DNA of 32,242 nt from positions 1 to 32,242 of IMG/VR virus record IMGVR_UViG_3300047483_000117. One strand, written 5' to 3'. This DNA comes from a virus. A program made the position numbers and the translations under genes. Of the stretch, positions 3,804 through 27,732 are shown one piece after another. How positions within the stretch are numbered: position 1 is the stretch's first letter; the number at the start of each line of letters is the position of its first letter. The notes beneath the pieces are model-generated. The model saw only the letters and a list, made by a program, of their open reading frames with translations. It ran no database searches and was not told the DNA's origin.

Positions 3804-3818
3804 GCACTTTCTGGAATG

Positions 3819-8233: not shown

Positions 8234-9012
8234 TGATTACCTTCTTTCTTTTTGAATTTCCAAAGTCCTCGTTTTTCTCCATCAATAATCATTTCATATA
8301 CTGCTTGTTCAACTGCTACACGAACAGCATATGTTGTAGGTTCATTCAGTGCTGCACCGTTCTCAAGTTCAAGAGCAGAAGTTCCTGCATCTACGAATCT
8401 AAGAACACCGAGACTATGTGCAGTGCTGTATATTGTTTTAGATACAGCATTAGTCATTAACACTTCACCTGAGTTTACACTAATAAGTCTTAGTGAAATA
8501 ACAACTTCATCAACACGATATTGAGTAGATGAACCAATACCAAGGAAACGAGCACCATTGCCACCAGAACGAATGTTACTATCATAGCCGATAATTCCAC
8601 CTTCGATCATCACACCAGCTACAGTTAACGGTTTTAGTGGTTTAGCTTCTTTCCCTTCGTACACTTCACGCTGATTACGAATCAGCTGTCTTTCTTTCAC
8701 CAGATTGTCAAGTCCTACTCTCTCAACAACCTTAAACCATCCTTTTGAGTCTTGAAGTGCTTTAATTAAAAAGACTTCAGCACCTTGTGTCACTGCTGTA
8801 GAAAACAGTGCCAACTTATCATTTGGTTTCTTTTGACCAGTCTTGTCCGCAAAACCATAAACAGCTATGGGTATTAGTGGACCATCTAGTTCTGGGATTC
8901 TATCTTGGTGGGCTTGTTTAGCGATTAACTTTGGTTCTTCTTTACCAAATTCCATCTCTACGTGTGCACAACCACTAAGAAGTACGAATAGTGTTAGGAT
9001 TACGTACTTCAT
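8230..9012 (-). CDS. csgG: CsgG-like outer-membrane curli secretion channel lipoprotein
   Basis: The 260-aa protein is a clear CsgG homologue. The lipobox LLSGC places the lipidated Cys at 15 with Ala at +2, consistent with outer-membrane sorting. Conserved segments match E. coli CsgG: VYGFADKTGQ (51-60), FSTAVTQGA, ALQDSKGWFKVVERVGL, ERQLIR, IIGYDSN, SGGNGARFLGIG, TQYRVDEV and the C-terminal EKRGLWKF. CsgG forms a nonameric pore secreting unfolded curlin. In the constriction loop the E. coli Tyr51 position is Asn (N64), the Asn55 region is changed with one extra residue, and Phe56 is kept (F70). It starts 1 nt after the CsgF stop and overlaps the curlin start. The family call is firm; use by the phage is inferred. 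Confidence 0.95.
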   Translation of the reverse strand: MKYVILTLFVLLSGCAHVEMEFGKEEPKLIAKQAHQDRIPELDGPLIPIAVYGFADKTGQKKPNDKLALFSTAVTQGAEVFLIKALQDSKGWFKVVERVGLDNLVKERQLIRNQREVYEGKEAKPLKPLTVAGVMIEGGIIGYDSNIRSGGNGARFLGIGSSTQYRVDEVVISLRLISVNSGEVLMTNAVSKTIYSTAHSLGVLRFVDAGTSALELENGAALNEPTTYAVRVAVEQAVYEMIIDGEKRGLWKFKKKEGNQ

Positions 9013-9013
9013 A

Positions 9014-9466
9014 TTAGAATGCGAACGATGCTATCGGCACAGTTATATCTGTTCTGTTGCCATTAGCTTCTGTTATTGTTAGGGTTACATCACTAGCAGT
9101 TTTGACCCAAGAGATATTTGTTCCTTGGAAATCCATGGTGCCACTGTTGCCACCATCGGCAAACATTGCGTCTGCCAACTGCTTAGATAACTGTGCGTAG
9201 ATTCTAGACTCTACGTTGACGAGAAACTTAGCTAGGTTTGTGCTCTTTGCGTCACGTTCAGCTTTATCAGCTGCAGCTTTTGCTTCGTCTTTTAATTTTT
9301 GTTTACGTTGACTTTCAATCTGCTCGATTGTCAGAACGTGAGATGAGTATCCCTGCCCATTGAAAGCTGGGGACACAAATTGATGAACCAGTTCTGCTGC
9401 ATAACTATTGTTTGAAATTGTGATCAGCAGAACCAGGAGGTATTTTCTTGAGAGATGCTTTAACAT
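9014..9466 (-). CDS. csgF: CsgF-like curli assembly factor
   Basis: The 150-aa protein has a signal peptide (about residues 1-23, cleavage near SYA-AEL), and the mature N-terminus starts with HQFVSPAFNG. That corresponds to the CsgF pattern (F-x-N-P-x-F-G-G) which plugs into the CsgG pore. An Ala/Lys-rich charged region follows, then a helix (FLVNVESRIYAQLSKQLADAMF) and a C-terminal beta domain ending DITVPIASFAF, as in CsgF. CsgF couples curlin export to surface nucleation. ATG 9466 lies 62 nt inside the upstream gene, so the signal peptide is encoded in an overlap. Its position directly before csgG supports the assignment. Confidence 0.85.
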   Translation of the reverse strand: MLKHLSRKYLLVLLITISNNSYAAELVHQFVSPAFNGQGYSSHVLTIEQIESQRKQKLKDEAKAAADKAERDAKSTNLAKFLVNVESRIYAQLSKQLADAMFADGGNSGTMDFQGTNISWVKTASDVTLTITEANGNRTDITVPIASFAF

Positions 9467-11956: not shown

Positions 11957-12481
11957 TTAATCCTCTAATAATTTTCTATCTACGTATCTGCCAAGACTTA
12001 GTACTATTCTAGGTGTACTCCCAACAACTGGAGTGGATCCATGTTTCCACTCAGATGCTAGGTTAATCCAGCATTGTCCTTGTTCAACAGTGTATGTGAT
12101 ACCATCTATAACTGGCATACCACCACCATTTGGTTTTTGTATCAAGAAATTTAATCTAACATGTATCTTGTCAGTCTTTCTTGGGTCGGTATGTGTATGA
12201 ACAAAAGCACCGCCAGAGTTGACACCGATAAAGTTACCGTAAAGATGTTCTTCTTCAGATGGAACTAGACCAAGTGTATTATAGCAGTGTTCAGAAAACT
12301 CACGAACTTGTTTGCTGAGTTCGTGATCCAGCTTATTTAGATTACAGAATTTTCTGCCTAATCCAGCTGGGTTTGTTTTGAATAACTTACCTTCGTCTTT
12401 AACAAAACGTTTGATAGAATCACTAAGACCATCGTCTATCAACAATGGTCTTATTACATTTTTTAAGCTGCTTTGCCCCAT
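11957..12481 (-). CDS. 2OG-Fe(II) oxygenase (prolyl-hydroxylase-like fold)
   Basis: The 174-aa protein has the full facial triad of Fe(II)/2-oxoglutarate dioxygenases: H97-x-D99 in FVHTHTDP and H147 in SEWKHGSTP, with R158 (TPRIVLSLG) placed to bind 2-oxoglutarate. The double-stranded beta-helix core around residues 80-165 is consistent with this. It would hydroxylate an unknown substrate (protein side chain, nucleobase or small molecule). ATG 12481 lies 19 nt inside the end of nrdB. It is the only one of three oxygenase-like genes in the window with a textbook HxD. Confidence 0.85.
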   Translation of the reverse strand: MGQSSLKNVIRPLLIDDGLSDSIKRFVKDEGKLFKTNPAGLGRKFCNLNKLDHELSKQVREFSEHCYNTLGLVPSEEEHLYGNFIGVNSGGAFVHTHTDPRKTDKIHVRLNFLIQKPNGGGMPVIDGITYTVEQGQCWINLASEWKHGSTPVVGSTPRIVLSLGRYVDRKLLED

Positions 12482-13443
12482 ACATCATCCCAAGAACCAG
12501 ACAGTGCACCCTTAGCGTAGTCAGTAACACGATTCTCGAAGAAGTTGCCGTGAACAGGTGCATTGATCATTTCTTCAACCCATGGTAACGGATTCTTCTT
12601 GACTTTGAAGATACCTTTCATACCTAGACCGATCAGACGACGATCTGCGATATAGCGAATGTAGGTCTTGACATCTTCTTTCTTCAAGTCACGTGCTTCA
12701 CCGCAAAGATCAATAAACTTGTCTTCAAGTTCTACCATTCGTTCAGCGATTGTGTAAATCTTACCTTTTAGTTCATCATTCCAAATTTCTGGATTTTCTT
12801 TGATGTACTCTTTGAATAGGCGCATCATGTTCTCAGCGTGCATTGTTTCATCAACAATAGACCAAGTAACAATCTGTCCCATACCCTTCATCATACCATG
12901 ACGTGGGAAGTTTAAAAGCATAATGAAGCTGGAGAACAACTGCATACCTTCAGTGAATGCAGAGAACACAGCGATGTGTGTAGCAGTAGACTCGATTGTT
13001 CCATTCTTAGAACTAATATCTAGAACATAATCATGCTTGTCACGCATCTCTTGGTATTCAAGAAACTGGTTGTAAGTAGTTTCTGGTAAACCAAGTGTCT
13101 CAATCAAGTGAGAATATGCAGCGATGTGTAGTGCTTCACGTGCTGCGAAACCCATCAACATCATGCGCACTTCTGGTTGTGGAAAGTGTGGTAGATAGTT
13201 CTTAACATATCCACCAGCTACGTCAATATCACCTTGTGTAAAGAAACGGAAGATGTTTGTCAAGAATTCTTTTTCTTCCTTGGTTAGTTTCTTCTTCCAA
13301 TCTTTAACGTCTTCAGCCATTGGTACTTCTGTGTGTAGCCAATGTGCTTGTTCGTGCTTCAACCATGCTTCATACGCCCATGGATAGTTGAACGGTTTAA
13401 AGTGATTTCGCTCGTCCGTAAGTCTGCTTGTCTTTTTAATCAT
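12463..13443 (-). CDS. nrdB: ribonucleotide reductase class I small subunit
   Basis: The 326-aa protein has all residues of an active radical-generating di-iron subunit: D72 (TQGDIDV), E103-x2-H106 with the radical Tyr Y110 (AREALHIAAY), E165 (AFTEGMQLF), and E199-x2-H202 (DETMHAEN). With NrdA it reduces ribonucleotides to deoxyribonucleotides for phage DNA synthesis. Because the radical Tyr is present it is Tyr-radical type, not class Ic. ATG 13443 has AAGGAAAA upstream. In this unit nrdB is separated from nrdA by an oxygenase gene and a 64-aa gene. Confidence 0.95.
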   Translation of the reverse strand: MIKKTSRLTDERNHFKPFNYPWAYEAWLKHEQAHWLHTEVPMAEDVKDWKKKLTKEEKEFLTNIFRFFTQGDIDVAGGYVKNYLPHFPQPEVRMMLMGFAAREALHIAAYSHLIETLGLPETTYNQFLEYQEMRDKHDYVLDISSKNGTIESTATHIAVFSAFTEGMQLFSSFIMLLNFPRHGMMKGMGQIVTWSIVDETMHAENMMRLFKEYIKENPEIWNDELKGKIYTIAERMVELEDKFIDLCGEARDLKKEDVKTYIRYIADRRLIGLGMKGIFKVKKNPLPWVEEMINAPVHGNFFENRVTDYAKGALSGSWDDVWGKAA

Positions 13444-13454
13444 TTTTATTTTCC

Positions 13455-14084
13455 TTATAGTACTAACGATGCTGTAGGTGTTTTGATTTCACCCTTGATC
13501 ATAATATTAAATGCCACTACTATTCTATCTTGTTTGGTGTCATTGAATCCAATATCAACACCATGAGGTAACCAACTTGGCCAGAACAACATTACACCAC
13601 GCTCTGGTTGATGGCGAAACAACCCTGCATTGGTTTCGTTCATTCTACTATAGTTGGGTTCAAATACTCTGGCTGATGGTCTTGGGTCAGAGAATGCTGT
13701 CATACCACATTTTTCTGGAGCAGTCAGGTAGATAATACCAGACATATAACAGTTTGGGTGAATGTGAACAGGGTGGCGGTGATTTGGGTTTGTTACATTA
13801 CACCACATATTTGAAATATAGTGACTTGTTCGAACAACACTGTAAAAATCTAAGATAGACTCAGACTCCTTCATAACAAGATCTGCCAATGGTTTAAAAT
13901 CTTCATTTGTTTGAAGATTATCAGCTGATACAAAGTTCTTGTGTTCAAAGTGCCCCTTGCCAAGAGTCTTTAACATTCTAGCTTTACGTTCTAGATTATT
14001 AATAAACTCTACATCACTAACTTTACTCTTGAATAGCAACGTAGGAAAGAGAGTGATAATCTCTCTGTTTTCCATTTCACTCAT
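13455..14084 (-). CDS. 2OG-Fe(II) oxygenase-like protein (2OG-FeII_Oxy_5 type)
   Basis: The 209-aa protein follows the pattern of a phage and marine-bacterial oxygenase family: LFPT near the N-terminus, a core motif HPVHIHPNCYMSGIIYLT (104-121), FSDPR (131-135), VMLFWPSWLPHGV (164-176) and a terminal DRIVVAFN (186-193). Candidate iron ligands are H107 or H109 and H174; the usual HxD Asp is not evident (N111 sits there), with D133 a possible substitute. R187 could bind 2-oxoglutarate. It is related to the partial protein at 31758. GGAG lies 7 nt before ATG 14084, and the gene overlaps the preceding 64-aa gene by 8 nt. Confidence 0.8.
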   Translation of the reverse strand: MSEMENREIITLFPTLLFKSKVSDVEFINNLERKARMLKTLGKGHFEHKNFVSADNLQTNEDFKPLADLVMKESESILDFYSVVRTSHYISNMWCNVTNPNHRHPVHIHPNCYMSGIIYLTAPEKCGMTAFSDPRPSARVFEPNYSRMNETNAGLFRHQPERGVMLFWPSWLPHGVDIGFNDTKQDRIVVAFNIMIKGEIKTPTASLVL

Positions 14085-14271
14085 TATCTAACTCCAACTG
14101 TATTTTATCATCAACAATATGTACCCCAACAACTTCACGGAGTCCTTCACTTGTATTAACAACCACCATAACTCTGGTTTTTGTTTTTAGAAGTTCACCG
14201 CTGTTCTTGGGGTACAGCGCACACCAATACTTCTTTATTTTATCAGAAATTTCGTATGCATCTAGTTTCAT
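14077..14271 (-). CDS. hypothetical protein (64 aa)
   Basis: This is a small beta-rich protein with no recognised family: the helix AYEISDKIKKYW is followed by strands such as TRVMVVVNT and VVGVHIVDDKIQLEL. It is directly abutted to nrdA (TAA then ATG with no gap) and overlaps the next oxygenase gene by 8 nt, so it is cotranslated with nucleotide-metabolism genes. Confidence 0.65.
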   Translation of the reverse strand: MKLDAYEISDKIKKYWCALYPKNSGELLKTKTRVMVVVNTSEGLREVVGVHIVDDKIQLELDNE

Positions 14272-16068
14272 TTATCCCTCGCATGCTAGACACTCGTTGC
14301 CTTGTGCTAGATCGTGTAAGTTAATTTCTTTAATCACTTCACGTTCGATCTTCTTAGCAACTTTGTCTGCTTTTGCGATCTTGTCAGAACGACAGTAGTA
14401 CATAGTCTTCAGCTTTGATTTCCAAGCCATGAAGTGTACTGCATGGATATATTTGATATGTGAATCTGGTCGGAAGAATACGTTCAGCGATTGCGCTTGG
14501 TCGATGTACTCTTGTCGGTCAGCTGCATGCTGGACCACCCAACGCTGGTCAATCTCCATAGAAGTCTTGAACACGTCTTTTGTCCAGTCGTCCATCCAAT
14601 CAAGGTGCTGAACGCTTCCATCATTCGCAATAATACTACGCCAAACTTCGTCAGACCATCCTTCATTATGTTTCTCAGCTTCTTTCTGGATCACTACATC
14701 AAGATACTTATTCTTATTCAGGTGCGAACCTGAGAGAGTATCTTGACGATACGCATTGGCACGATAAGGTTCAATGCTAGGACTAGTATTGCCCATGAGA
14801 ATGGAAGAAGAAGCATTGGGAGCAATAGCCATGAGGTGACTAAAGCGATTTCCAGTGCCAATCGCATCAGGAGCTTCACCTCGCTCGGCACCAAGTTTTT
14901 TATTGGCTTCATCTAGTTTCTTTCTTATACCCGCAAAGATTGTTTTATTGAGTCCGACTGCCATGCTTGATTCCCATGGGATGTGCTTCTTTTGCAAGAG
15001 GGCATGCCAACCCAACGCACCGATCCCGATTGAGCGTTCACGCATGGCGGAGTATTTTGCTCTTTCGATTGAGGTAGGTGCATTATCAATAAAATGCTGA
15101 AGAACATTGTCAAGCATTTCTGCAACATCAGCAAGGAAAGTAGGATCGTTTTTCCACTCATCATAGTATTCAAGGTTCAATGAAGACAAGCAGCAAACAG
15201 CTGTACGTTCTTCGTTGGTTGGTAGGATGATTTCAGAGCAAAGATTAGACTGATGAACACGAAGTCCTTTGTCCTTTAGCCACTGTGGTAACTGACGATT
15301 AGACTCATCAATGTAGTGAATGTATGGTTCACCAGTTTGCATACGCATCTCAAGGATACGCATCCATAACTCTTTAGCCGACACAGTCTCACGAACCTCA
15401 TTAGAAGCTGGGTCAATTAAGTCCCATGAATCATCTGCTTCAGAATCAATCATACAACGCTCAATGATTTCCATGAATGAATCTGGAATATTGATGCCGT
15501 GGTGTAAGTTCAAGCAACGCATGTTTTGGTCGCCTGTTGGCTTACGCATCTCTAAGAAAGAAATAATATCTGGATGGCTAATGTCGAGATAAGCAGCATA
15601 ACTGCCACGACGAGTACGACCTTGACGATATGCAAGACTCGACGCATCGTAAATTTTGAGGTGTGGCATAACACCAGTACTCTTGTCATCCGCAGAACGA
15701 ATACCAAAGCCAATGCCCACACCGCCACCAAGCATAGAAAGCCAATTAGTTTCACTAAGATTATCAACTAAACCCTCCGCTGTGTCTTCAATGTAGTTAA
15801 GAAAGCAAGAGATAGGCAGTCCTCGTTTACTTCTCCCGAATGAGAGAATAGGTGTTGAGTAACTAAGCCAGTGCTTGCTGGAATGATTGTATAGTCGTTG
15901 TGCGTGCTCTGGATTTGAACCAAATTTGCTGCTAACGTATGCGAATCGTTCTTGTGGCGATTTTTCTTCATCTCGCATGTAACTTTCTTTTAATCTAACC
16001 AAACCTAATGCGTCAAACAGACTATCACGAGAATAGTCTACCCTAATGCCATGCACGACATCGTCCAT
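14272..16068 (-). CDS. nrdA: ribonucleotide reductase class I large subunit, no ATP-cone
   Basis: The 598-aa protein retains the full catalytic set: C88 (ISCFL), the thiyl-radical site N275-L-C277-S-E279 (NLCSEI), partner C292 (VCCLSSLNL), the C-terminal YY pair (KTMYYCRS) for radical transfer, and the tail C593-x2-C596 (ECLACEG) for thioredoxin or glutaredoxin reduction. It is about 160 residues shorter than E. coli NrdA (761 aa) and lacks the N-terminal ATP-cone, so it should escape dATP shut-off, as expected for a phage enzyme. GGAG lies 8 nt upstream of ATG 16068. It sits between thyX and nrdB. Confidence 0.95.
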   Translation of the reverse strand: MDDVVHGIRVDYSRDSLFDALGLVRLKESYMRDEEKSPQERFAYVSSKFGSNPEHAQRLYNHSSKHWLSYSTPILSFGRSKRGLPISCFLNYIEDTAEGLVDNLSETNWLSMLGGGVGIGFGIRSADDKSTGVMPHLKIYDASSLAYRQGRTRRGSYAAYLDISHPDIISFLEMRKPTGDQNMRCLNLHHGINIPDSFMEIIERCMIDSEADDSWDLIDPASNEVRETVSAKELWMRILEMRMQTGEPYIHYIDESNRQLPQWLKDKGLRVHQSNLCSEIILPTNEERTAVCCLSSLNLEYYDEWKNDPTFLADVAEMLDNVLQHFIDNAPTSIERAKYSAMRERSIGIGALGWHALLQKKHIPWESSMAVGLNKTIFAGIRKKLDEANKKLGAERGEAPDAIGTGNRFSHLMAIAPNASSSILMGNTSPSIEPYRANAYRQDTLSGSHLNKNKYLDVVIQKEAEKHNEGWSDEVWRSIIANDGSVQHLDWMDDWTKDVFKTSMEIDQRWVVQHAADRQEYIDQAQSLNVFFRPDSHIKYIHAVHFMAWKSKLKTMYYCRSDKIAKADKVAKKIEREVIKEINLHDLAQGNECLACEG

Positions 16069-16781: not shown

Positions 16782-17791
16782 GTACTGAATTTCAATTTCG
16801 CTTCCATACCACTATAGGTGTTTGTATTTATCAATTCTACAATTTCTTCTGGTGACAGACCACCTTCTAAAACCATCTCATTGATATCTTTCTGTTGTAC
16901 AGTGGTAGGAAACATACAAACAGAATAACCTAACTCGATATATTTTTCTAATTGCTTGACGATCTCTCGATTTCTAGGCTCGTTATCCATTACAATTGTT
17001 GCATTAGCAAGCAACTGACGGATGGTAGGCGTATCAAAGCTAGAACCAGAGACAGCAATACCATTTGGTAAGAAAAGACTATCAATTGGACCTTCGACAA
17101 CATAGATACGTTTGCCAAAGTCAACACGATCTAAACCATAGATCTTTTCTTCTGTCTCATCGACCTTGATGGTATAATACTTAGGATCCTCTTTACCATA
17201 AGCACGTGCTTGATAAGCAAAACATTTACCTGCTCTAGTGAAGTATGGAATAATCATCCTTGGATGTTCACTTTCTACTGGCTCAACGAACTTTGGTGTA
17301 ACCGTATTGGTGAATGTTTTAAACTTCGGAGCAAAGTACAACAAGTGCCATTTGTTTCGAGGAATCTTACGATCGACCACATACTTAACTGCAGGGTGAG
17401 TTATATCTAGCTTATCTAAACGCTTGAGTGGTTCAAGAATATCGTCTTCCAATAGTTCCACAACCTTTGGCTCAGGAATCATTGGTGCTACGTCTTTGTG
17501 GGAATTGTATTTTGTAGCACCAGCCTTGTAGCGTTCGAGTACATACTCGTCGTACAAGTTAGTGTCTACATATTTGATAAGATTACCGATGTTGGTCGAG
17601 TGACCGCAGTTGTGACACTTGCAAAATAAGTCTTGTTTGGCACGATAGATGTAACCACGTGCTTTCAATTTATTTTTAGATGAGTCACCACACACTGGAC
17701 ACGAATAGTTCCAGAGATAATCATTCTTTTGTTTGAAATTTCGTAAGCGACTACCAAGCATGTTGGTGTACTTAACATCAATGAATAACAT
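16766..17791 (-). CDS. 61: DNA primase, T4 gp61 type
   Basis: The 341-aa protein corresponds in length and motif order to T4 gp61 (342 aa). An N-terminal zinc finger (C31-x2-C34 in SCPVCGDS; C59-x2-C62 in CHNCGH) is followed by KARGYIYR. The toprim domain shows IYVVEGPIDSLF (E233) and VMDNEPRNREI (D269, E271), and the C-terminus GMEAKLKFSTWRKV resembles the T4 end. Gp61 makes pentaribonucleotide primers in the gp41 helicase-primase complex. It is the first gene after promoter P3, with GGAG 8 nt before the ATG, so it heads the long unit. Confidence 0.92.
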   Translation of the reverse strand: MLFIDVKYTNMLGSRLRNFKQKNDYLWNYSCPVCGDSSKNKLKARGYIYRAKQDLFCKCHNCGHSTNIGNLIKYVDTNLYDEYVLERYKAGATKYNSHKDVAPMIPEPKVVELLEDDILEPLKRLDKLDITHPAVKYVVDRKIPRNKWHLLYFAPKFKTFTNTVTPKFVEPVESEHPRMIIPYFTRAGKCFAYQARAYGKEDPKYYTIKVDETEEKIYGLDRVDFGKRIYVVEGPIDSLFLPNGIAVSGSSFDTPTIRQLLANATIVMDNEPRNREIVKQLEKYIELGYSVCMFPTTVQQKDINEMVLEGGLSPEEIVELINTNTYSGMEAKLKFSTWRKV

Positions 17792-17816
17792 TACAAATCT
17801 CCACGCATAGAGTATA

Positions 17817-17845
17817 ATTATACCCTATGTTACATTATAAAGCAA
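17817..17845 (-). promoter_or_regulatory. sigma70-type promoter P3 (TTGCTT-17-TATAAT)
   Basis: On the minus strand TATAAT (17817-17822) and TTGCTT (17840-17845) have a 17-nt spacer. The promoter lies between the stop of the 142-aa gene and the primase ATG (17791), so it should start the unit that ends at the terminator at 3819-3842. The -10 overlaps a palindrome (GTATAATTATAC). Confidence 0.75.
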
Positions 17846-17848
17846 GTT

Positions 17849-18277
17849 TTATTTTGTACCGAATACTGTTGAGAATATTTCTAAGTGACCAATAATGTAA
17901 CCTAAAACAATTGCACCGCCAACAATCATCCAACGCCATCTTTCAAGAACATCGACTCGGTCAGAAACACCCTTGACATCTTTGTCAAGAGCCTTGATGT
18001 CTTCTTGCAACGCTTTTTGAATTTCTTCATGTTGTTGCTTTGATGCAACAGCACTTGCATTCATCTTATGTTCGATACGGGTTTGCATATCGTCCATCTT
18101 CTCGACAATCTCCCTTGTTTGAGTGGTGATGCGAGAATGGAGTTCTTTAATATCGTCTCGCACTTCTCTTACGTCCTCTTGAATGGATTCAACCTTAGTT
18201 TCCAATTTTGCAATTCTTTCTTGGTCCACGGACAGCCTCTCAATACATGTTTTGTTTAGTTCGACTTCTTGGTGCAT
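17849..18277 (-). CDS. tail-anchored coiled-coil protein (142 aa)
   Basis: Residues about 5-105 form a long charged coiled coil (LETKVESIQEDVREVRDDIKEL). A single C-terminal membrane helix (about 112-131, RWMIVGGAIVLGYIIGHL) and a short tail follow. This tail-anchored layout is common among small phage lysis or envelope proteins, but no family is certain. ATG 18277 overlaps the o-spanin stop (TGATG). It is the last gene before promoter P3. Confidence 0.75.
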   Translation of the reverse strand: MHQEVELNKTCIERLSVDQERIAKLETKVESIQEDVREVRDDIKELHSRITTQTREIVEKMDDMQTRIEHKMNASAVASKQQHEEIQKALQEDIKALDKDVKGVSDRVDVLERWRWMIVGGAIVLGYIIGHLEIFSTVFGTK

Positions 18278-18540
18278 CACTTAACACTATCAAAGATTTG
18301 CTTTTGAGTTTTATACCACTCATTCCATGCATCAACTTTGATTCTACATTCATGATACTGTCCGTAGTTATCAACAACGACCTTAAGAACGTCAGACAAC
18401 TTTTCAGTAGTCTCAACAGTCTTTAGATCTGGGCATGACTCCACAAGTTCTTTTGGAACCTCTGGAAAGTTTCTTTTTACTGGTGTAGCTGTGCAACCAA
18501 CTAACAATAGCAGAGGAATAATGACAGCAAGTTTCTTCAC
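18277..18540 (-). CDS. small lipoprotein, candidate o-spanin (Rz1-like)
   Basis: The 87-aa protein begins with a lipoprotein signal peptide (LLLLVGC, Cys16, +2 Thr, suggesting the outer membrane) and a Pro-containing segment (FPEVPKEL). The mature region has two Cys (ESCPDL, YHECRI) and Trp/Tyr near the C-terminus (AWNEWYKTQ). Size, lipobox and overlap with an upstream membrane coiled-coil gene (4 nt) fit an outer-membrane spanin, which joins its inner-membrane partner to fuse the two membranes at lysis. It is not a classic nested Rz1, so the call rests on architecture. Confidence 0.6.
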   Translation of the reverse strand: MKKLAVIIPLLLLVGCTATPVKRNFPEVPKELVESCPDLKTVETTEKLSDVLKVVVDNYGQYHECRIKVDAWNEWYKTQKQIFDSVK

Positions 18541-19943: not shown

Positions 19944-19951
19944 TATTTATT
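19944..19951 (-). promoter_or_regulatory. AATAAATA, candidate late promoter
   Basis: The minus-strand octamer AATAAATA overlaps the stop codon of the Ig-like protein gene, about 46 nt before the 126-aa gene start. It has one mismatch to the T4 late consensus. Confidence 0.35.
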
Positions 19952-20477
19952 AGGCTACAGTTAGAGTTGCTGCGCTAGAAGTTACAGACTCTGCACCTGC
20001 TAGAGAAACTACAACACGGTACTTATCACCGTCTGTTGCGCCAGCACCGTCACCAGTTGCTGTTGCACCAGTTGTGTAGCTTGCGCTAGTTGCACCAGAG
20101 ATGTCAGCCCATGCGCCAGCACCTTCTTGTTGAATCTGCCATTGGTATGTTAGAGAACCAGAACCAGTGCGAGTAGCTACAACACTGAATGTCGCTGCTG
20201 CTGGAGCAGTAACAGATTGGTTCGCTGGTTGAGTACCAATAGTGATCTCAGGAGCGATTGTATCGTTGTCTAGAGTAATAGTTGAAATAGCAACTAGAAC
20301 TTCTGACTTGTGGCGAGTGTTGCCTTGAGCATCTGTGTAAGGAGTATTTAAACCCTTAGCTTGGTTTTCTGCTGTTTGAGCTTCTGCAACGTCTAAACCG
20401 AAAACTGTATCCTTCTCTGCAGAAGTTAGGTTCTTTGGTTCGCTTGCTGTAGCGTCTGTGTTTGACCATAGTGACAT
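19950..20477 (-). CDS. virion structural protein with C-terminal Ig-like domain
   Basis: The 175-aa protein has a conserved N-terminal region (MSLWSNTDATASEPKNL; FGLDVAEAQ; TDAQGNTRHKSEVLVA) known from many marine T4-like virion proteins. It is followed by an Ig-like beta-sandwich (about residues 75-175). The Ig domain shows the usual pattern: QPANQSVTAPAAATFSVVA, then LTYQWQIQ with the core Trp, then YRVVVSLAG and SSAATLTV. Ig-like domains on capsids or tails usually bind surface carbohydrates weakly. It has a strong AAGGAGAT ribosome site and an upstream AATAAATC that may be a late promoter, implying high late expression. Confidence 0.8.
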   Translation of the reverse strand: MSLWSNTDATASEPKNLTSAEKDTVFGLDVAEAQTAENQAKGLNTPYTDAQGNTRHKSEVLVAISTITLDNDTIAPEITIGTQPANQSVTAPAAATFSVVATRTGSGSLTYQWQIQQEGAGAWADISGATSASYTTGATATGDGAGATDGDKYRVVVSLAGAESVTSSAATLTVA

Positions 20478-20492
20478 TTTTATCTCCTTGAT

Positions 20493-21386
20493 TTATTTGA
20501 TTCTAGGTCCACGAGCACCAGACTTTGAGCCAGCTGGTCTACCACGACCTCGTTTTTGAGTTGTTGAACTTGTTTCTTCTTCGTCACCTTCACCATGTGC
20601 TTCAATGTCTTTACGACGAATGCTATCTACTTGATAACCAGATGGTTTGTGTTCACGTTCTGCACGAGAACGAACGCTGTGCTCTGATTCATCTTTGTCT
20701 GCAACATATGTGGTGACTTTAACACGACCAGTATCTTTGTGGGTTGCTTTAACCATATACTGGGCACGACCTTCCATAAGAGATTCAACGAAGTCTGTGA
20801 ATGTTACTTTACCGTATGTAATGTTACCGTCTTCGTCAAACTCTTCTTTAACAGTTTTCTTCTTAGCGTTTTCCCACTTTTCTTCGTGTGGTTCATCACC
20901 AGCTACTTGAACCTTAACTTTTACTGGTCCAGTATTAGAAACTGCTTCGCTTACGCCATCTTTGTTCTTTTGTGTATTGTAGTAAGCACCAAGAGCCATT
21001 TTGATACGCTCTTTTTTAGTCTTACCTTCGAACTTTGGATTGGTAGAGTGAACGAAATCACTAATCCAATCAGATGCTTTAGCGTCAGCACCTAAAACTT
21101 CATCTAGTTGATCTAGATCTTGTTCGTCCATTTCTTCTTCACGGATACCAGCAGCACGCATTAAGTTAGCTACTGAAGCACCACGAACCTTACGACCAGA
21201 ATGGCGTACGTTTTGTAGACGTTGTTTAGCTATAGCTGCACGATTAAAATCATATGATTCATCGGTTGGCTCAGTGTCTTCTTTACGAAGCATCTTAAAG
21301 TCTTGAGCATCAATCTGACCGTTTTTATTTTTATCGATCTTATGTTGCTTACCTTTTAATGCTTCTACAAATGATTTGAATTGCAT
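20493..21386 (-). CDS. virion-type protein with EF-hand and AT-hook-like tail
   Basis: The 297-aa protein starts MQFKSFVEALKGKQHKID, like the capsid-targeting N-termini nearby though without a clear LxE site. An EF-hand loop follows directly (DKNKNGQIDAQDF, residues about 18-30), suggesting Ca binding. A middle segment (ASDWISDFVHSTNPKFEGK, then RIKMALGAYYNTQKN) is familiar in marine T4-like structural proteins. The C-terminus has the AT-hook-like basic motif KRGRGRPAGSKSG. ATG 21386 is chosen because GGGGA is 6 nt upstream; an ATG four codons earlier is in frame. A DNA-contacting, head-internal role is plausible. Confidence 0.7.
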   Translation of the reverse strand: MQFKSFVEALKGKQHKIDKNKNGQIDAQDFKMLRKEDTEPTDESYDFNRAAIAKQRLQNVRHSGRKVRGASVANLMRAAGIREEEMDEQDLDQLDEVLGADAKASDWISDFVHSTNPKFEGKTKKERIKMALGAYYNTQKNKDGVSEAVSNTGPVKVKVQVAGDEPHEEKWENAKKKTVKEEFDEDGNITYGKVTFTDFVESLMEGRAQYMVKATHKDTGRVKVTTYVADKDESEHSVRSRAEREHKPSGYQVDSIRRKDIEAHGEGDEEETSSTTQKRGRGRPAGSKSGARGPRIK

Positions 21387-21387
21387 T

Positions 21388-21819
21388 TTATTCCCCATCT
21401 TTAAGGATAGACTTCAACATCCATCCATGTTTCTTATGTGCATCTATTCTAGAGGCGACAAAGTCTAAAAAACCTTGTTCGCCAAGTTGTTCCAACTTCT
21501 TGAATAATATATTTAGGCTAACCAGTACTTGCTCATTAGTATCAGAGAGGTCAGATACCATAGCTTTAGCAGTCTTGGCTAGATTTTTGCAATCTACGGT
21601 TTTGTCTTCGTACATTTCTTCTATGCTTCTAGGTGCATATTCACCCATCGCACGAATCTGTTCAGCTAGTGGATCAACTGCACCATAGACCTCAGAGTAA
21701 AGATCTCCAAAGAATCCATGTAGTTGAGGAAAGAACATACCCTCAACGTTCCAGTGATATGACTGAGCTTTATTGAACATAAAGAATGTATCGGCTAAAG
21801 CTGTTCTTGATTCTATCAT
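21388..21819 (-). CDS. Dps-like ferritin
   Basis: The 143-aa four-helix protein matches the Dps fold: SYHWNVEGMFFPQLHGFFGDLY (residues 20-41) followed by AVDPLAEQIRAMG (47-59). Intersubunit ferroxidase ligands H22, H34, D49 and E53 are at the Dps spacings. The position of E. coli D67 is Gly38, with Asp39 adjacent. Dps oxidises Fe(II) with peroxide and often binds DNA. The usual Lys-rich N-terminal tail is absent. It lies within head-protein genes, so it may be packaged to protect phage DNA, or made late to protect genomes from host peroxide. Confidence 0.75.
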   Translation of the reverse strand: MIESRTALADTFFMFNKAQSYHWNVEGMFFPQLHGFFGDLYSEVYGAVDPLAEQIRAMGEYAPRSIEEMYEDKTVDCKNLAKTAKAMVSDLSDTNEQVLVSLNILFKKLEQLGEQGFLDFVASRIDAHKKHGWMLKSILKDGE

Positions 21820-21821
21820 TA

Positions 21822-22307
21822 TTAACTTCCTACTACAGTCTCGTTATCGTAAATACCAAAGTTAGCAGTTTCAACTTTTGGATTCCATCCAATTTTTCTT
21901 AGTTTAAGAATACAGTGACCTGGACCGTCGAAAGTAAATCTTAGATCTTTGTCTGCATAAATTCGATCAGCAAAACCGTGGTGGTCGAACTCATACTGTC
22001 CAGTGTTAATTAGGTAGTAGTGGCTGTGCACTAAACCACTGCCAGCATTAAGAATTCTAGTTATGTCTAACTGTTTGTCTTTCTTTAGACCCCACCAGAT
22101 ACCAGTAATGAATACATGCGAACCAGTGTATTGAGCAAAGTGACCATCAGTTTCTGCAGAGTCACCAGCACCAGCGACATAAACTTGCTTTGGTGTTGTC
22201 AACCAAGTAGATAGACTAACATCGAGAACTTCACCAGCAGACTCAGTTGTATAAACTTTGATAACTGCTTCAGTTTCTGAATTTTTTAGTACGTGTATTT
22301 TAGACAT
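21822..22307 (-). CDS. putative virion structural protein, beta-rich (161 aa)
   Basis: The N-terminus MSKIHVLKNSETEAVIKVY and the segment HVFITGIWWGLKKDKQLDITR recall a small structural-protein family in marine T4-like phages. The rest is beta-rich (HSHYYLINTGQYEFDHHGF; DLRFTFDGPGHCILKLRKIGW). No enzyme motif is visible. It lies between the Dps-like gene (2 nt gap) and a capsid-targeted small protein (5 nt gap). Function is unknown; virion assignment is by context and resemblance. Confidence 0.7.
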   Translation of the reverse strand: MSKIHVLKNSETEAVIKVYTTESAGEVLDVSLSTWLTTPKQVYVAGAGDSAETDGHFAQYTGSHVFITGIWWGLKKDKQLDITRILNAGSGLVHSHYYLINTGQYEFDHHGFADRIYADKDLRFTFDGPGHCILKLRKIGWNPKVETANFGIYDNETVVGS

Positions 22308-22312
22308 TTAAA

Positions 22313-22582
22313 TCACCATGCTCTGCAAGACCAATAACGTGCTTTGTCTTTTGGTCCTGGATTGTCGCAGTTATGACGTGCACGGAAGTTCTTACGACGA
22401 CCTGGAATATGCTTTTTGATAGTCATATTTTTATCACCGAAGTTGACCTTCTTGGCTTTACCGTCACCATCTGGATCTACATAGACTTTAGATTTCTTAA
22501 CGTCACCAGCCATTGGTTTGTTTAGTGGAACTTTCTTACCTTGGTAAGTAGCTTCTGCTAGGTATTCTTTAAATGATAACAT
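22313..22582 (-). CDS. small head-internal-type protein with capsid-targeting N-terminus (89 aa)
   Basis: It starts MLSFKEYLAEATYQG, closely like the T4 internal-protein capsid-targeting sequence (MKTYQEFIAEA). LAE-A fits the (L/I)xE rule of the T4 prohead protease. The mature part is basic, with KVYVDPDGDGKAKKVNFGD and RRKNFRARHNCDNP, ending ARYWSCRAW. This domain recurs in phages without a known activity; two Cys and the basic surface could bind DNA. ATG 22582 is 1 nt past the upstream stop. An ATG four codons upstream is possible but would bury the targeting motif. Confidence 0.75.
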   Translation of the reverse strand: MLSFKEYLAEATYQGKKVPLNKPMAGDVKKSKVYVDPDGDGKAKKVNFGDKNMTIKKHIPGRRKNFRARHNCDNPGPKDKARYWSCRAW

Positions 22583-22583
22583 A

Positions 22584-23006
22584 TTATGTTCCATATGTGT
22601 CGTCCATAGCACCAGAGCGGAAACCTGTTTTTGCAGGAACATGTGGTGCTGGCTTTTGTGGGTTCATTTCAGTCTGCTTTTTGCGAATAGCGTCAACTTT
22701 TGCACGGGCACGATTTAGACCACGACCATGAATTTGGTGTGGTGGCTCACCCTTCTTCTTACTGAAAACGTGATCCATAGCAGCAACAGCGGTTTTCATA
22801 CGAGCATCACGATTACCACGCTTTGCTTGGTATGATTGTAAAGTTGTTAAGCTAAGTTCATCAAGTTGTTCAGATTGCTCTTCTACAACAGTTTCTTCTT
22901 TAACACAAGAACCTTCAGCACATGGCTTAGTTCCTGGCTTACGCTTGTAGCCCTTCCAGCAGTTACATGCTTCTGCTAGGTATTCTTTGAAAGTTTTATA
23001 AGACAC
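22584..23006 (-). CDS. head-internal-type protein with capsid-targeting N-terminus, Cys-rich (140 aa)
   Basis: The GTG start (23006) is supported by AAAGGAG 9 nt upstream. The protein begins MSYKTFKEYLAEACNCWKGY: LAE-A again fits T4-type prohead-protease cleavage. A cysteine-rich basic segment follows (C14, C16, C29, C34 in CNCW...KPCAEGSC), then QLDELSLTTLQSYQAKR and a basic helix (GRGLNRARAKVDAIRKK). The type resembles small structural proteins of marine T4-like phages. It overlaps the upstream nucleotidyltransferase-like gene by 11 nt. Confidence 0.75.
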   Translation of the reverse strand: MSYKTFKEYLAEACNCWKGYKRKPGTKPCAEGSCVKEETVVEEQSEQLDELSLTTLQSYQAKRGNRDARMKTAVAAMDHVFSKKKGEPPHQIHGRGLNRARAKVDAIRKKQTEMNPQKPAPHVPAKTGFRSGAMDDTYGT

Positions 23007-24627
23007 TTGGCATTGCTCCTTTAGTAGTTTTTCCGTGTGACATTCTAGCCTTTTCTACCTTGCGAACTCTCGCTACAAGTTTCTGGGCAACACGATTTAT
23101 TGTATCTTTTCTTTTTTGTAGTGCACGTTCAATGCGTTCACGTTCACCAACAGAGATTTTTGATGGGTCTCTACCACGTAGCATACGCTTCTTCATTAGC
23201 TTAATAGCTAGTCTACGTGCACGTTTGTTAACTGTTTTAGCGTCAGAGAAACGCTTTAGTGCAATCTTAGTAGAACGCTCTCTTTTCGCTGCGCTCTTGC
23301 GCATACGAAACTTAGCCTTCATACGTTCTTGTCTTGACAGCACTTCCATCAAGTCAAGTTTTTGTTCTTCTGGGTGGTGTTCAACATCTTCGCCAGTGTC
23401 TTCGTAGACCAGAGAAAGTTCTTCTTCCTCATATAGATCCATAATTTCTTCATCAGAAACAGACTCAACCATAGAATCAATATCGCTATCACTTAGTTCG
23501 AATTCTTCTTTAAAGAATGGATCGAATGTCGGTTGAAGAGTTGTAGTATCTACATGATCATCTTTCTCACACTCACATTCTTTCTTACCACAATCTGGAC
23601 AAACCTCATCTTCTTCAGCAAGACGACCTTTTTCAAGTTCGTGTTTTTTCTTAAGTGCTTCTTTTTCTTTAGCTTGTTTGATAATGACCGCAGCTTTGGC
23701 ACGAGCTTTTTGTGCAGCGTTCTCAGCAGGTTTAACTTCTTCAGATACAGTATCATCCGTATTGTTATAGAATGTTAGAAACCCCTTTGTTTTACCACGT
23801 GGTTCTGGATCTTTCTTTGCGCCAGTATCAGCTTCTGGAGCATTAGCGTCAATCTTATCTGATCCAGTAGGTTGAATAACTGCTTCTGTTTTCATCTTTT
23901 GTTTGACTAGCTTCACATCGTGAATCCACTTAGAAACCAGTTCTCCTGTTTGTTCTTTTAGTAATAGATGATTAGAGCCACGTTTGACGATAGTGTATTG
24001 TTTACCATCTGATTCAACCATCTCACCTTCGTTAAAAATCTCACCCTTAAAATACTTCTCACGAAGTTTATCTTTAACTAGGTTGATTTGCTCTTTGATT
24101 GGTTCTAATTGCATACCAACACGCATCTCATTCATTAGACGTTTACCGTCAATGTCACGGATGGTAGATGGTAGTAGACGTTTGAAGTCTTCATATAAAC
24201 CCTTGGTAGCATACTGCTTCATTTTAGGGTTATCGACATCTGGATCTTTATCTCCAATAGAGATAATCTCGACGTTAGAAGATTCTTTTAACTTTTTGAA
24301 TTCAGCGAACTGGTCTGCACCAGCAATAATAACAACTCTACGATACTTTTCGGAAAGTTGTTTAATTGTGTTGCTAAAGAATGACTCGCTGAGTGACTTG
24401 AATTTAGTCTTTGGGAACATTAGCTGTAAGAAATGTTCTTTCTTTTCTTCGCTAATGATTTCGGATGGAGATGTGAAGATTGTGTGGTCTGCTCTGCGTT
24501 GTTCAGCGACCACTTTAACAGTTTTGACTAGTAGTTCGTGCGCAGTTGTAGGTGGGCTAAACTCACCAAGAGCGCAAACGATAGTACTAGTAGGAAGTTC
24601 TTTTATTAATTGTCTATAATCTTTCAT
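22996..24627 (-). CDS. NMN-adenylyltransferase-like domain (degenerate) fused to basic structural domain
   Basis: The 543-aa protein begins MKDYRQLIKELPTS, similar to the T4 capsid-targeting sequence, with IKE as candidate cleavage site. Residues about 15-155 form a nucleotidylyltransferase (HIGH-superfamily) domain: ALGEFSPPTTAHELLVKTV and VVIIAGADQF. The active-site signatures are eroded: GRFNPPTTGH-like became GEFSPPTTAH, and the C-terminal S-G-T-K-x-R site is NPKMK (133-137). A SH3-like stretch (GEIFNEGEMVESDGKQY), an acidic linker with a Cys cluster (CPDCGKKECEC, 343-353) and a very basic helical C-terminus (about 447-532) follow. I prefer ATG 24627 over 24636 for its ribosome site and family-like start. 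Probably a virion protein. Confidence 0.75.
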   Translation of the reverse strand: MKDYRQLIKELPTSTIVCALGEFSPPTTAHELLVKTVKVVAEQRRADHTIFTSPSEIISEEKKEHFLQLMFPKTKFKSLSESFFSNTIKQLSEKYRRVVIIAGADQFAEFKKLKESSNVEIISIGDKDPDVDNPKMKQYATKGLYEDFKRLLPSTIRDIDGKRLMNEMRVGMQLEPIKEQINLVKDKLREKYFKGEIFNEGEMVESDGKQYTIVKRGSNHLLLKEQTGELVSKWIHDVKLVKQKMKTEAVIQPTGSDKIDANAPEADTGAKKDPEPRGKTKGFLTFYNNTDDTVSEEVKPAENAAQKARAKAAVIIKQAKEKEALKKKHELEKGRLAEEDEVCPDCGKKECECEKDDHVDTTTLQPTFDPFFKEEFELSDSDIDSMVESVSDEEIMDLYEEEELSLVYEDTGEDVEHHPEEQKLDLMEVLSRQERMKAKFRMRKSAAKRERSTKIALKRFSDAKTVNKRARRLAIKLMKKRMLRGRDPSKISVGERERIERALQKRKDTINRVAQKLVARVRKVEKARMSHGKTTKGAMPSVL

Positions 24628-24654
24628 ACGATCCATCTATAAAGTAATTAATCT

Positions 24655-24662
24655 TATTTAGG
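24655..24662 (-). promoter_or_regulatory. CCTAAATA motif, candidate late promoter
   Basis: On the minus strand CCTAAATAAG lies in the 39-nt gap between the 592-aa gene and the 543-aa gene, about 28 nt before the ATG. The octamer is repeated at the gene junctions near 10210 and 27725. Confidence 0.4.
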
Positions 24663-24666
24663 ATAA

Positions 24667-26445
24667 TTACTTCATTGCCTTTCTCAAATCATTATACAGT
24701 TCATCTTTGTGTTCTGGCTTCATCTGAGAAGATAGATTAGAGTGGAACTCTTTTTTCTTACCAGTTGCTGCTAGTTCACGAAGTTTAGTACCAGAGATAC
24801 CAGCTACCCCTTTAGCACCTTCTTCACGCTCACCAGATGAGTGGAACTGTATGTCTTTAAAATTATAGTATCCATGAGCAGACTTGACACCATTATACTT
24901 CTTGAGCATTTCTGCCATACCTTTACGATCTGAACCACCAGTAAAGTGTAAGTGTGTAACACCTTTGTTGTGTAGATCTACAGCGTGATGCAGCAGAGTT
25001 GGCTTATCTTTAGAAGCAACTTCGATGTTAGTTCCAGGGAATGCATTCTTAGCATGGTATAGTTTTTGCTCTGGAGACAGAGGATTCTTACCATCTTTAG
25101 TTGCATGTGAGTGAGAAAGGATAAGAGTATGTCCACCCTTAACTTCTTTGGCTTTGTCTTTTAGAGTTTTAACAACTTCTTCGTGACCAGCAGTTGGTGG
25201 ATTCATACGACCAAAAGCGATTACGTGATGAACATCTTTAGATTCCTCTTTAGATGGTCCACGTGCCTTTAGTAAGTTTTGACGGGCAAACTCAGCACGG
25301 TTGACTAACTTAGTTGGCTCAGTTACACCTTTATGTGTATGGCTGTAAACAAACCCTTCTGGTTTAGATTCTTTGCCACCGATGGCATGTGCGTACATAC
25401 CTTCATTAGATTCTAGATGGCGAACTAATAGATTCTTAGCATCTGCTAAGTGTCCATGCATCTTAAGTAGATTATCGTAGTGTTGTTTGTTCTTTTCGAT
25501 ATTATTAACATGACCACGCAACTCATCCAACTTAGCATTCTGAGACTTTTCAGTCTTTAGTTTCTTGACCATGTTTTCATACTTACCAGCAATGTGCTGC
25601 TTTAAACCCTCAGCACTTGGTGTTTCACCAGTACGCACTGTTTGGTTAATGTAAGTAGCCAAATGACCACCATCACCATGATGCATTTCTGTGGCTTTAT
25701 ACATCTTGTCGCCATGTTGATTATGTATCGTTCTGGCTTTAGATAAGTGATCAAGAAATTGTTTCTGTGCTGACTCTGGATAGTTGACTTTACTAGAGTC
25801 ATAGTCTGCAGTATGGTGGTATACATCTTTGTGTTGGCCAAACTCTGAAGCAGAAACATTATGATGCGCAGACATACTAGAAAGAGTATCACCCTCATAC
25901 TTGGTATGAACTACAACACCAATTTTAGATTTCTTAATAGCGTCAGCTTTATCACCCTTTGCTGTATAGGTGATCGTGTTTGGTGTGAAGGATACTTTAC
26001 CGTCTTTGTGCTTTTCTAAATCATCATGTGTATACATCAAGTCGCCTTGATAAACACCGTGCTGTGGAGAGATTTTAGGAAAGTGTTGTAGAGCAGATTT
26101 TAGTTTATCTGCTAGACCTGGAGCATGACCGTGATTCTTATCAACGTCTTCAGGGGTGTAGTTAATCTTTGGATTCTTATTGAATGCAGACTTAGAAGCT
26201 ACAAAGAACTTACCAGTCTCTGGATGGTGACCAAAAACAACAGACGGTGAACCGTCATACTTCATTGTTAGTTTGTTATTTTGTGCACCAGACTTGGTAT
26301 GGAAGTGTGCACCGTGTAGTGCATCATACGCATGGTGGAAACCTTCTTCGCCATGTAAGATTGGTCGATCTTCAGCGTGATGAATATGCTTTAGCTTAGC
26401 ACCTTCATCATCTGCTTCTGTGAGGAATTGCGTAAACTGTAGCAT
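24667..26445 (-). CDS. capsid-targeted protein: KxDG ligase-like domain fused to NMN adenylyltransferase
   Basis: The 592-aa protein starts MLQFTQFLTEADDEG (LTE-A, T4-like capsid-targeting and cleavage motif). The N-terminal half has nucleotidyltransferase/ligase-style motifs: K62-Y-D-G65 (TMKYDGSPSVVFG), GVYQGDLMY (130-138), EGFVY (363-367) and TKLV (378-381), in the order of ligase motifs I, III, IV and V. The C-terminal domain (about 405-592) is a HIGH-superfamily nucleotidylyltransferase with intact signatures: VIAFGRMNPPTAGHEEVV (408-425) and GISGTKLREL (549-558). The linker is His/Lys-rich. The C-terminal domain could make NAD from NMN and ATP, or use a related substrate. The ligase reading is a motif inference. 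Confidence 0.75.
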   Translation of the reverse strand: MLQFTQFLTEADDEGAKLKHIHHAEDRPILHGEEGFHHAYDALHGAHFHTKSGAQNNKLTMKYDGSPSVVFGHHPETGKFFVASKSAFNKNPKINYTPEDVDKNHGHAPGLADKLKSALQHFPKISPQHGVYQGDLMYTHDDLEKHKDGKVSFTPNTITYTAKGDKADAIKKSKIGVVVHTKYEGDTLSSMSAHHNVSASEFGQHKDVYHHTADYDSSKVNYPESAQKQFLDHLSKARTIHNQHGDKMYKATEMHHGDGGHLATYINQTVRTGETPSAEGLKQHIAGKYENMVKKLKTEKSQNAKLDELRGHVNNIEKNKQHYDNLLKMHGHLADAKNLLVRHLESNEGMYAHAIGGKESKPEGFVYSHTHKGVTEPTKLVNRAEFARQNLLKARGPSKEESKDVHHVIAFGRMNPPTAGHEEVVKTLKDKAKEVKGGHTLILSHSHATKDGKNPLSPEQKLYHAKNAFPGTNIEVASKDKPTLLHHAVDLHNKGVTHLHFTGGSDRKGMAEMLKKYNGVKSAHGYYNFKDIQFHSSGEREEGAKGVAGISGTKLRELAATGKKKEFHSNLSSQMKPEHKDELYNDLRKAMK

Positions 26446-26446
26446 A

Positions 26447-27688
26447 TTATTTTAGTTTAAATGAACCAGCGATACCTTTGTGGGCACCTGAAGAAGACTT
26501 TAGAGTATAACGTGCAGCAGTCATAATCTTACCTGTTTTAGCATGCTTACCTTTAATAGTAACAGTAGTACCAGCACCTGGAGCTACATGTAAGCTACCT
26601 TCTTCAAAGTTTGACAAGTGGTCATCTGCTAGAGAGTGCATTGGTTTTACAACAGACTCAGCAGAACCATCGTTCTTGACCTTTGAATGTACAACGCTAT
26701 GAGGGATATGAGTAGAAGGAGAAACGTTCTGACGAATAACGTCTCTTAGGCTAGCATCGTCATGTTGAGAAAGACCTTGAGCGAATGCTGCAGTTGCCGA
26801 TGTTCTGGCAGACAGGTTAGAAGAGCGAGCCATATCTGCTCTTGCTTTTGCTTTGTGTACAAACAATTCTTGTTTGCTTTTTGGTAGAGAATCATGCACA
26901 CGTAGGAACTCAGAAAGTTGCTCATGCATAACTTTGTTTTTACCAGATAGCTTCTTGCCACCAGCGATTGTTGCTTCATGCTTTGCGTGTTCAGCACGAG
27001 CTTTATCAACACCCATCTCATCAATTTTTGTTTGAATGTTACGTTGATCAGCAGAACCACTATAACCTAGTTTGTCCATGTGCTCTTTGTGAGCATTCAT
27101 GAAACTAGAAAGAGAACCAGAAGGAATCTTCGCTGCTTTTTCTAGAGCATCCATACCTGGATTGCGGTAGTTAGGTTCTTGTGAACCATACTTGGCAGAA
27201 ATACCATGATGTCCTACTGTCTTACCTTCTTTGTCGTGAAGTGTTAAGATAACGTCAGCATTAGAGTTTACGTCTTTAACACCAACAGTCTTTTCATGGT
27301 CGCCAGCTACGTTTGGTTTGTCAGCGTTAGATGTCCAGTGAACGTTACCGATGTGAGCATGGTCACCAATATGACCTTGTTGCTTTAGGTGTTCTTTGAA
27401 TGCGTCAGCAGATTGCTTAGCGTGTCGGTCGATCTCTGCATATGCAGGTTCGCCAATCTTCTTACGTAAGCGATCGTGAACTTGTTGTGGCGTACCAGCG
27501 TGATCTTCGTTATCTGAAAAAGAACGATGATGTTCTGGTAGAGTAGAATTTGGGTGTAGGTGTTTGGCTAGAAGAAGTTCATGCATCTTACCTTTGTCGT
27601 CGGCTTCAAGGGAAGCTGTTTCTGCAGCTTCGACCAACAACTCTTCGTTTAAGACTTCTTCTTTAAGAAATGATTTGAATTTTAGCAT
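26447..27688 (-). CDS. capsid-targeted His/Lys-rich protein, possible nuclease fold (413 aa)
   Basis: The N-terminus MLKFKSFLKEEVLNEELLVEAA matches the capsid-targeting pattern with several LxE sites (LKE, LNE, LVE-A). Next comes MHELLLAKHLHPNSTLPEHHR, then a central alpha/beta region with SNADVILTLHDKEGK and HHGISAKYGSQEP, an arrangement (D, then S/E-x-K) that resembles PD-(D/E)xK nucleases. It is rich in His and Lys throughout, like its 592-aa neighbour, and ends in a beta-rich domain (TTVTIKGKHAKTGK). I cannot name the family; the nuclease idea is low confidence. It is separated by 1 nt from the 592-aa gene. Confidence 0.7.
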   Translation of the reverse strand: MLKFKSFLKEEVLNEELLVEAAETASLEADDKGKMHELLLAKHLHPNSTLPEHHRSFSDNEDHAGTPQQVHDRLRKKIGEPAYAEIDRHAKQSADAFKEHLKQQGHIGDHAHIGNVHWTSNADKPNVAGDHEKTVGVKDVNSNADVILTLHDKEGKTVGHHGISAKYGSQEPNYRNPGMDALEKAAKIPSGSLSSFMNAHKEHMDKLGYSGSADQRNIQTKIDEMGVDKARAEHAKHEATIAGGKKLSGKNKVMHEQLSEFLRVHDSLPKSKQELFVHKAKARADMARSSNLSARTSATAAFAQGLSQHDDASLRDVIRQNVSPSTHIPHSVVHSKVKNDGSAESVVKPMHSLADDHLSNFEEGSLHVAPGAGTTVTIKGKHAKTGKIMTAARYTLKSSSGAHKGIAGSFKLK

Positions 27689-27703: not shown

Positions 27704-27732
27704 AATAGGGTTAAACTAACCTATTATTTAGG
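27704..27732 (-). promoter_or_regulatory. CCTAAATA motif plus stem-loop in 5' leader
   Basis: The minus strand reads CCTAAATA (27725-27732, spanning the TAA of the metallopeptidase-like gene), then a stem-loop of AATAGGTTA against TAACCCTATT (one bulged base; 27704-27725). The ATG of the 413-aa gene follows 16 nt later. A late promoter with a leader hairpin is the simplest reading. Confidence 0.4.

Follow-up and report, generated by a model that had tools for sequence, protein, structure and literature searches.

Five adjacent minus-strand genes (positions 22313-27688) of the virus record IMGVR_UViG_3300047483_000117 begin with a common leader, M-x-x-[F/Y]-x-x-[F/Y]-[L/I]-x-E, that is most probably a capsid-targeting sequence on head-internal, co-injected proteins, operating as in the T4 internal proteins. 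At the sequence level this is supported by the leader itself, by its four key positions, by its confinement to one late-promoted cluster, by the add-on nature of the leader, and by the protease and LxE sites of relatives. In all, seven independent lines of evidence support the reading of the leader as a T4-type capsid-targeting sequence.

The window, meaning the whole stretch of DNA analysed, is the entire IMG/VR record of 32,242 bases, and nearly all of its genes lie on the minus strand. They include a gp61 primase, ribonucleotide reductase, ThyX, a Hoc-like head protein and a GC198-type protein. The best relatives are Methylophilales phage Melnitz, phage C48C1 and cyanophages, and gene content and relatives together place the window among the T4-like Kyanoviridae-type phages. 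Melnitz, a cultured phage, bears leaders too, in its genes 12203-13288 (MQGFKTFLSE/A) and 13272-14528 (YITE/D). Megablast of the leader-gene region against phage genomes gave no match. Replication and nucleotide-metabolism genes flank the leader-gene cluster, and a head-protein-type gene (19950-20477) adjoins it.

Five leader genes and their start codons

All five main starts that the sequence-only reading had taken for a shared leader were verified as real minus-strand ORF starts (Table 1). Three of them needed care in placement. The leader ATG of the 546/543-aa protein lies in frame within its ORF, where the alternative start at 24636 (MDRMKDYRQ) gives 546 rather than 543 aa. The 140-aa gene starts at a GTG preceded by an AGGAG ribosome-binding site, giving MSYKTFKEYLAEA, with the motif shifted by two residues. 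For the 89-aa gene the listed ORF begins at 22642, and the leader ATG stands one base past the stop of the preceding gene. Aromatic residues (F/Y) occupy positions 4 and 7 in four of the five proteins, counting the one shifted by two residues; MKDYRQLIKEL instead has Leu at position 7, a residue replaced by Phe in the G003 relative (MKDYKQFLREL). The (L/I)-x-E element reads LKE, LTE, IKE, LAE and LAE in the window, and mostly LxE in relatives.

Table 1. Leader-bearing genes and late-promoter motifs in the window (a slash marks the predicted cut)
Feature	Coordinates	Strand	Start and leader, or placement
413-aa protein	26447..27688	-	ATG 27688; leader MLKFKSFLKE/E at 27659-27688
592-aa protein	24667..26445	-	ATG 26445; leader MLQFTQFLTE/A at 26416-26445
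546/543-aa protein	22996..24636	-	leader MKDYRQLIKE/L from ATG 24627
140-aa protein	22584..23006	-	GTG 23006; leader MSYKTFKEYLAE/A
89-aa protein	22313..22582	-	ATG 22582; leader MLSFKEYLAE/A directly before ATYQGKKVPLNKP
CTAAATA late-promoter motif	27725..27731	-	36 nt upstream of the 413-aa gene
CTAAATA late-promoter motif	24655..24661	-	18 nt upstream of the 546-aa gene

A sixth, weaker instance had been proposed at MQFKSFVEAL (gene 20493-21398, start 21386). We rejected it as a leader, since none of the four key positions is in register and LxE is absent. Relatives of that gene mostly start with MQFKSFMEALKGKQ, with MKTFKQFNEA or with unrelated residues, and a single one (L067) has a clean leader. 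Also within the cluster is a Dps/ferritin-like protein (21388-21819) that itself has no leader and is a possible DNA-protecting partner; a homologue lies within the cluster of relative G005.

Conserved positions and their frequency

Our survey covered 2,143 ORFs predicted in about 80 related loci (contigs) and in five genomes, and the loose motif was concentrated in three similarity clusters of these ORFs. Among the 238 members of the relevant gene families, 155 carried the strict motif, including 23 of the 40 members of family 4 (the 140-aa protein family), versus 3 of 1,665 other ORFs of at least 80 aa. Relatedness of the sequences inflates the corresponding Fisher P of about 1e-161; the independent point is that the start is common to non-homologous cargoes. 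The three strict-motif ORFs outside the families look like further true cases.

Whole-genome searches were run in near-complete relatives, the window record being 32 kb only. The DNA pattern ATG-N6-TWY-N6-TWY-NTN-NNN-GAR gave 20 matches in six such relatives, 18 of them within the cluster homologous to that of the window, and its reversed form, used as a control, gave none in the same six. Cyanophage S-PM2, siphophage Kolga and Roseobacter phage CRP-901 contained no match. In the 169-kb T4 genome the pattern matched only ipII, ipIII and gene 61.1, thus recovering two of the three known internal proteins together with one gene of unknown function. The shared leader start is not due to chance. 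It was represented by 75 distinct leader peptides and 110 distinct coding sequences, all with the same four positions. Because the leader codons vary synonymously, the constraint acts on the peptide, which rules out an artefact at the RNA level or of start-codon context.

To locate the constrained residues independently of the motif, we took first-ATG N-termini with no motif filter and calculated the information in each column after the Met. Columns 4, 7, 8 and 10 ranked highest in each of three families, with column 5 tying column 8 in family 2. The respective values were 2.28, 1.96, 1.65 and 2.10 bits in family 0, 2.23, 1.97, 1.58 and 1.91 bits in family 4, and 3.85, 4.02, 3.06 and 3.28 bits in family 2, against at most 0.15 bits at these columns in other genes. 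An alignment of 18 sequences of the 413-aa family had M1, F4 and F7 invariant and K5 and E10 near-invariant, with residues 11-19 varying.

Mutagenesis of T4 IPIII found the first ten residues sufficient, with residues 4 and 7 acting in targeting and residues 8 and 10 in processing (PMC9026906). Judged by sequence, the leader columns match these residues position by position and bear out the resemblance to T4 MKTYQEFIAEA noted in the sequence-only reading. IPII and IPIII begin MKTYQEFIAEA and IPI begins MKTFKEFTSTTTPVSTITEA. The likeness appears as an ungapped match on four informative positions, with which common descent and convergence would both be compatible.

A separable leader on diverse cargoes

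The 89-aa protein provides the clearest view of the leader as an addition. Orthologues in phages without a T4 head lack it and start MAKYQGR (Kolga), MAKYKGR (HTVC202P) or MATYKGK (CRP-901). These leaderless sipho- and podo-type copies thus begin M-A-[KT]-Y-[QK]-G-[KR], and the window protein reads MLSFKEYLAE/ATYQGKK, so that its additional N-terminal stretch stops precisely where the cut is predicted. The presence of the 89-aa cargo in podo- and siphophages led us to consider the leader as a general phage motif, which we rejected, as those copies carry none. Contigs without gp21/gp23 that were first read as non-T4 turned out to be T4-like fragments bearing the same leader cluster.

The DUF6267 and adenylyltransferase modules behave in the same manner. 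Where they are fused, the leader is at the front only; where relatives encode them as separate genes, each has its own (MKSFIDFLKEE... and MLSFLSFLKES...HGVLAFGRMNPP). The orthologous cyanophage genes of the T4-GC71/T4-GC190/T4-GC534 block (P-HM2, S-PM2) encode DUF6267 and cytidyltransferase proteins with their gene order unchanged, and lie close to GC198 and to the head-protein gene GC537. They differ in having no leader: the versions read in P-HM2 begin directly at the domain (MSKNTHLEHLED... and MKKVYVTFGRLNPP...). In longer small proteins with two modules, a second (L/I/V)xE/A often stands where the modules meet (12 of about 18 distinct cases).

Short-leader variants occur in the 89-aa family (L133-L212), for example MKSFKTFEAT, MKTFKQHMEAT and MKSFKQHYNEAT. 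They keep F/Y at position 4 and the E-A pair and lose the preceding L/I; in about 40% of them F, Y, C, T or H stands in its place three residues before the cut, so that FTE, YNE, CNE or HME precedes the Ala. The T4 protease rule, (L/I)xE near residue 10, which the sequence-only reading had invoked, thus describes all five window leaders but is not always followed within the 89-aa family.

The claim that the cargo domains are unrelated holds in part: non-homologous cargoes do share the start, but the 592-aa and 543-aa proteins have an adenylyltransferase domain in common. In predicted structures the leaders were disordered and the cargoes folded. The AF2 model of the 413-aa protein had a pLDDT of 88, falling below 50 at residues 1-24, and the PDB entry that it matched best was MspI, a restriction enzyme (prob 0.99, with E 1.9e-3 and a modest TMq of 0.28). 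Invariant D145, S164 and K166 in this family fit a D...SxK site, and the model suggests a PD-(D/E)XK nuclease-like fold; the protein has structural relatives in cyanophages. A sequence-profile search of solved structures gave no match for the 592-aa protein and only noise for the 413-aa protein.

The 592-aa protein consists of the leader, a DUF6267 domain with a KYDG motif (Pfam PF19782, E 8.6e-95) and a NadD/PPAT/FAD-synthetase-like adenylyltransferase (PHROG cytidyltransferase). Foldseek matched its model to FAD synthetase, PPAT and NadD with prob up to 1.0, and residues 1-20 and 352-402 were disordered. The C-terminal domain has the nucleotidyltransferase fold and an (H/T)xGH-type motif (GRMNPPTAGH at 412-421), with a TIGR00125 score below the cut-off of that model. 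By sequence, the invariant K62-x-D-G motif of DUF6267 may recall polynucleotide ligases, which we treat as a lead. A second cytidyl/adenylyltransferase is encoded by the 546-aa gene (PHROG 3041, E 2e-23). The two small proteins are basic and Cys-rich: the 140-aa protein contains CNCWKGYKRK, a unit also preceded by LxE inside a cyanophage protein (as CWKGYK), and the 89-aa protein is of the PHROG 7595 type (E 5.2e-11). Scans of PHROG, Pfam and NCBIfam returned cytidyltransferase, DUF6267 or unknown families and no match to the IPI, IPII or IPIII families. Relatives also have leaders on P-loop NTPase-like and HAD-phosphatase-like proteins, recognised by eye from their motifs only (G021 (L219) 17685-18383; G049 (L232) 43293-43904; G057 (L250) 3169-3807).

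Predicted late expression, head protease and proposed role

The CTAAATA sequences upstream of the 413-aa and 546-aa genes (Table 1) have the form of the late promoter described for T4-like phage Aeh1 (PMC1524935). In G001-G004, 62 of 139 copies lay within 60 nt upstream of a start, compared with a mean of 6% for 104 anagrams, and copies in relatives also precede tail sheath and (in G004) capsid genes. The T4-consensus late promoter TATAAATA had no copy in the window. The placement of CTAAATA predicts that the leader cluster is expressed late, together with the head.

The window is a 32-kb fragment that lacks head genes of its own, and the protease and capsid cut sites were read in relatives. 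Peptidase_S77, the gp21 family, was found in all seven relatives of sufficient length (G001-G006 and G009). The major capsid protein had a predicted LxE cut site in 11 of 11 relatives, at about residue 50-65 and just before an AxPxN-like stretch (ELNE/AAPAN, ALFE/AAPTN and FLSE/AAPTN, for example), and the scaffold N-terminus commonly read ILAE/S or LLAE/S. Together these predict the same cutting rule for the lineage. In cyanophage ACG-2014f, gp125 (L243 5742-8552) is a 936-residue protein encoded between gp16 and gp17 in which LDE immediately precedes a CWKGYKRK unit, as though a head polyprotein of cyanophages were divided into units by LxE sites.

We infer that the leader proteins bind the scaffold, are cleaved, end up in the virion and are injected. 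The aromatics at positions 4 and 7 would dock the newly made protein onto the prohead scaffold core, and during head maturation a gp21-type prohead protease would cut after the (L/I)xE at position 10 (12 in the GTG-started gene), freeing the cargo within the head. Surrounded by packaged DNA, the cargo would then be ejected into the host along with it. The cargo types suggest a set of enzymes and DNA-binding proteins that would be required in the opening minutes of infection.

Delivery is the step challenged by one alternative, in which the leader recruits scaffold or assembly partners to the prohead that are degraded or gone before DNA filling. The T4 core proteins gp22, gp67 and gp68 offer a precedent, being targeted, cut to fragments and mostly lost (PMC9026906), and cyanophages lack gp67 and gp68 (PMC2984593), which leaves room for other core partners. 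The cargoes here, however, are unlike scaffold in being conserved, folded and enzyme-like, with catalytic-type motifs kept, and a homologue of one of them was recovered from finished virions: mass spectrometry of cyanophage S-SM1 detected T4-GC190, which is homologous to the adenylyltransferase module (PMC3037559). We therefore regard loss before DNA filling as unlikely. As the T4-GC190 family has no leader in P-HM2, the S-SM1 result supports the association of this cargo with virions and not the leader mechanism, and that protein can apparently enter heads another way.

The leaderless cyanophage orthologues, and the location of the cluster between replication and nucleotide-metabolism genes, would also suit a docking peptide for some other partner (replisome, RNA polymerase or membrane), with the proteins acting in the infected cell only. 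We consider this improbable, given the exact T4 targeting and processing positions, including an LxE superfluous for docking, the lack of the leader precisely in phages without T4 heads, the late promoters and the adjoining head-protein-type gene. An origin of the shared start in recombined or duplicated 5' gene ends, with no targeting role, would fit the adjacency of the genes and the modular shuffling of the small proteins; it is made very improbable by the retention of the same four positions across the many distinct leader peptides and coding sequences, and by the drift of positions 11-19 while F4, F7 and E10 stay. Capsid targeting with delivery thus remains our preferred reading. A broader proposal, which we offer tentatively and regard as doubtful, is that Kyanoviridae-like phages hold a modular, late-expressed head arsenal in which a portable ten-residue tag brings complete enzymes into virions (nuclease-like, DUF6267 ligase-like, NMN/NaMN-type adenylyltransferases, and kinase and phosphatase relatives), so that NAD and nucleic-acid metabolism or repair would be ready ahead of any phage gene expression. 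If so, the packaged enzymes might, for example, counter NAD-depleting or nucleic-acid-cleaving defences.

T4 IPI, IPII and IPIII (MKTYQEFIAEA / MKTFKEF...ITEA) share with these proteins a ten-residue leader with aromatics at 4 and 7, I/L at 8 and E at 10, mostly followed by Ala, as well as several different cargoes per phage and a gp21-type protease in the lineage. They differ in that their cargoes are non-homologous to those here and are small restriction inhibitors rather than larger predicted enzymes; the genes described here form one late-promoted block, and the phages are Kyanoviridae-like, not Straboviridae. New relative to the T4 proteins are the phage lineage, the enzymes as cargo and the grouping into one late operon, and in the open-access literature we found no description of such sequences for T4-like phages of marine or metagenomic origin. 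T4 gene 61.1 (NC_000866 18966-19130, locus L241; 54 aa, function unknown), which adjoins 61.2 (adfA), begins MKTFKEFIKED and by this start is a candidate for an unrecognised internal protein. To our knowledge, the T4 ADP-ribosyltransferase Alt is without the F/Y-x-x-F/Y leader form, and the enzyme classes here are others than its own. Alt is alike in being a head-packaged, injected enzyme processed by the prohead protease (PMC9026906). In phiKZ and SPN3US, similarly, many head proteins are processed by a gp21-related protease and ejected; the phiKZ cleavage rule differs (S/A-x-E), and the excerpts of PMC9026906 describe no short aromatic leader.

Proteins injected with phage DNA decide the first minutes of infection, but homology hardly ever reveals them except in T4 and a few giant phages. 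The four informative positions of a short leader single out candidate injected proteins in uncultured T4-like phages, by which hundreds of 'hypothetical proteins' become testable injected effectors, and the cargoes suggest the delivery of enzymes and not of small inhibitors alone. Elsewhere in the window, CsgF, CsgG, curlin-repeat, FecR-domain and CHASE2-adenylate cyclase proteins are encoded in one phage-borne block (4607-9466), which recurs in Methylophilales phage Melnitz (50731-56876).
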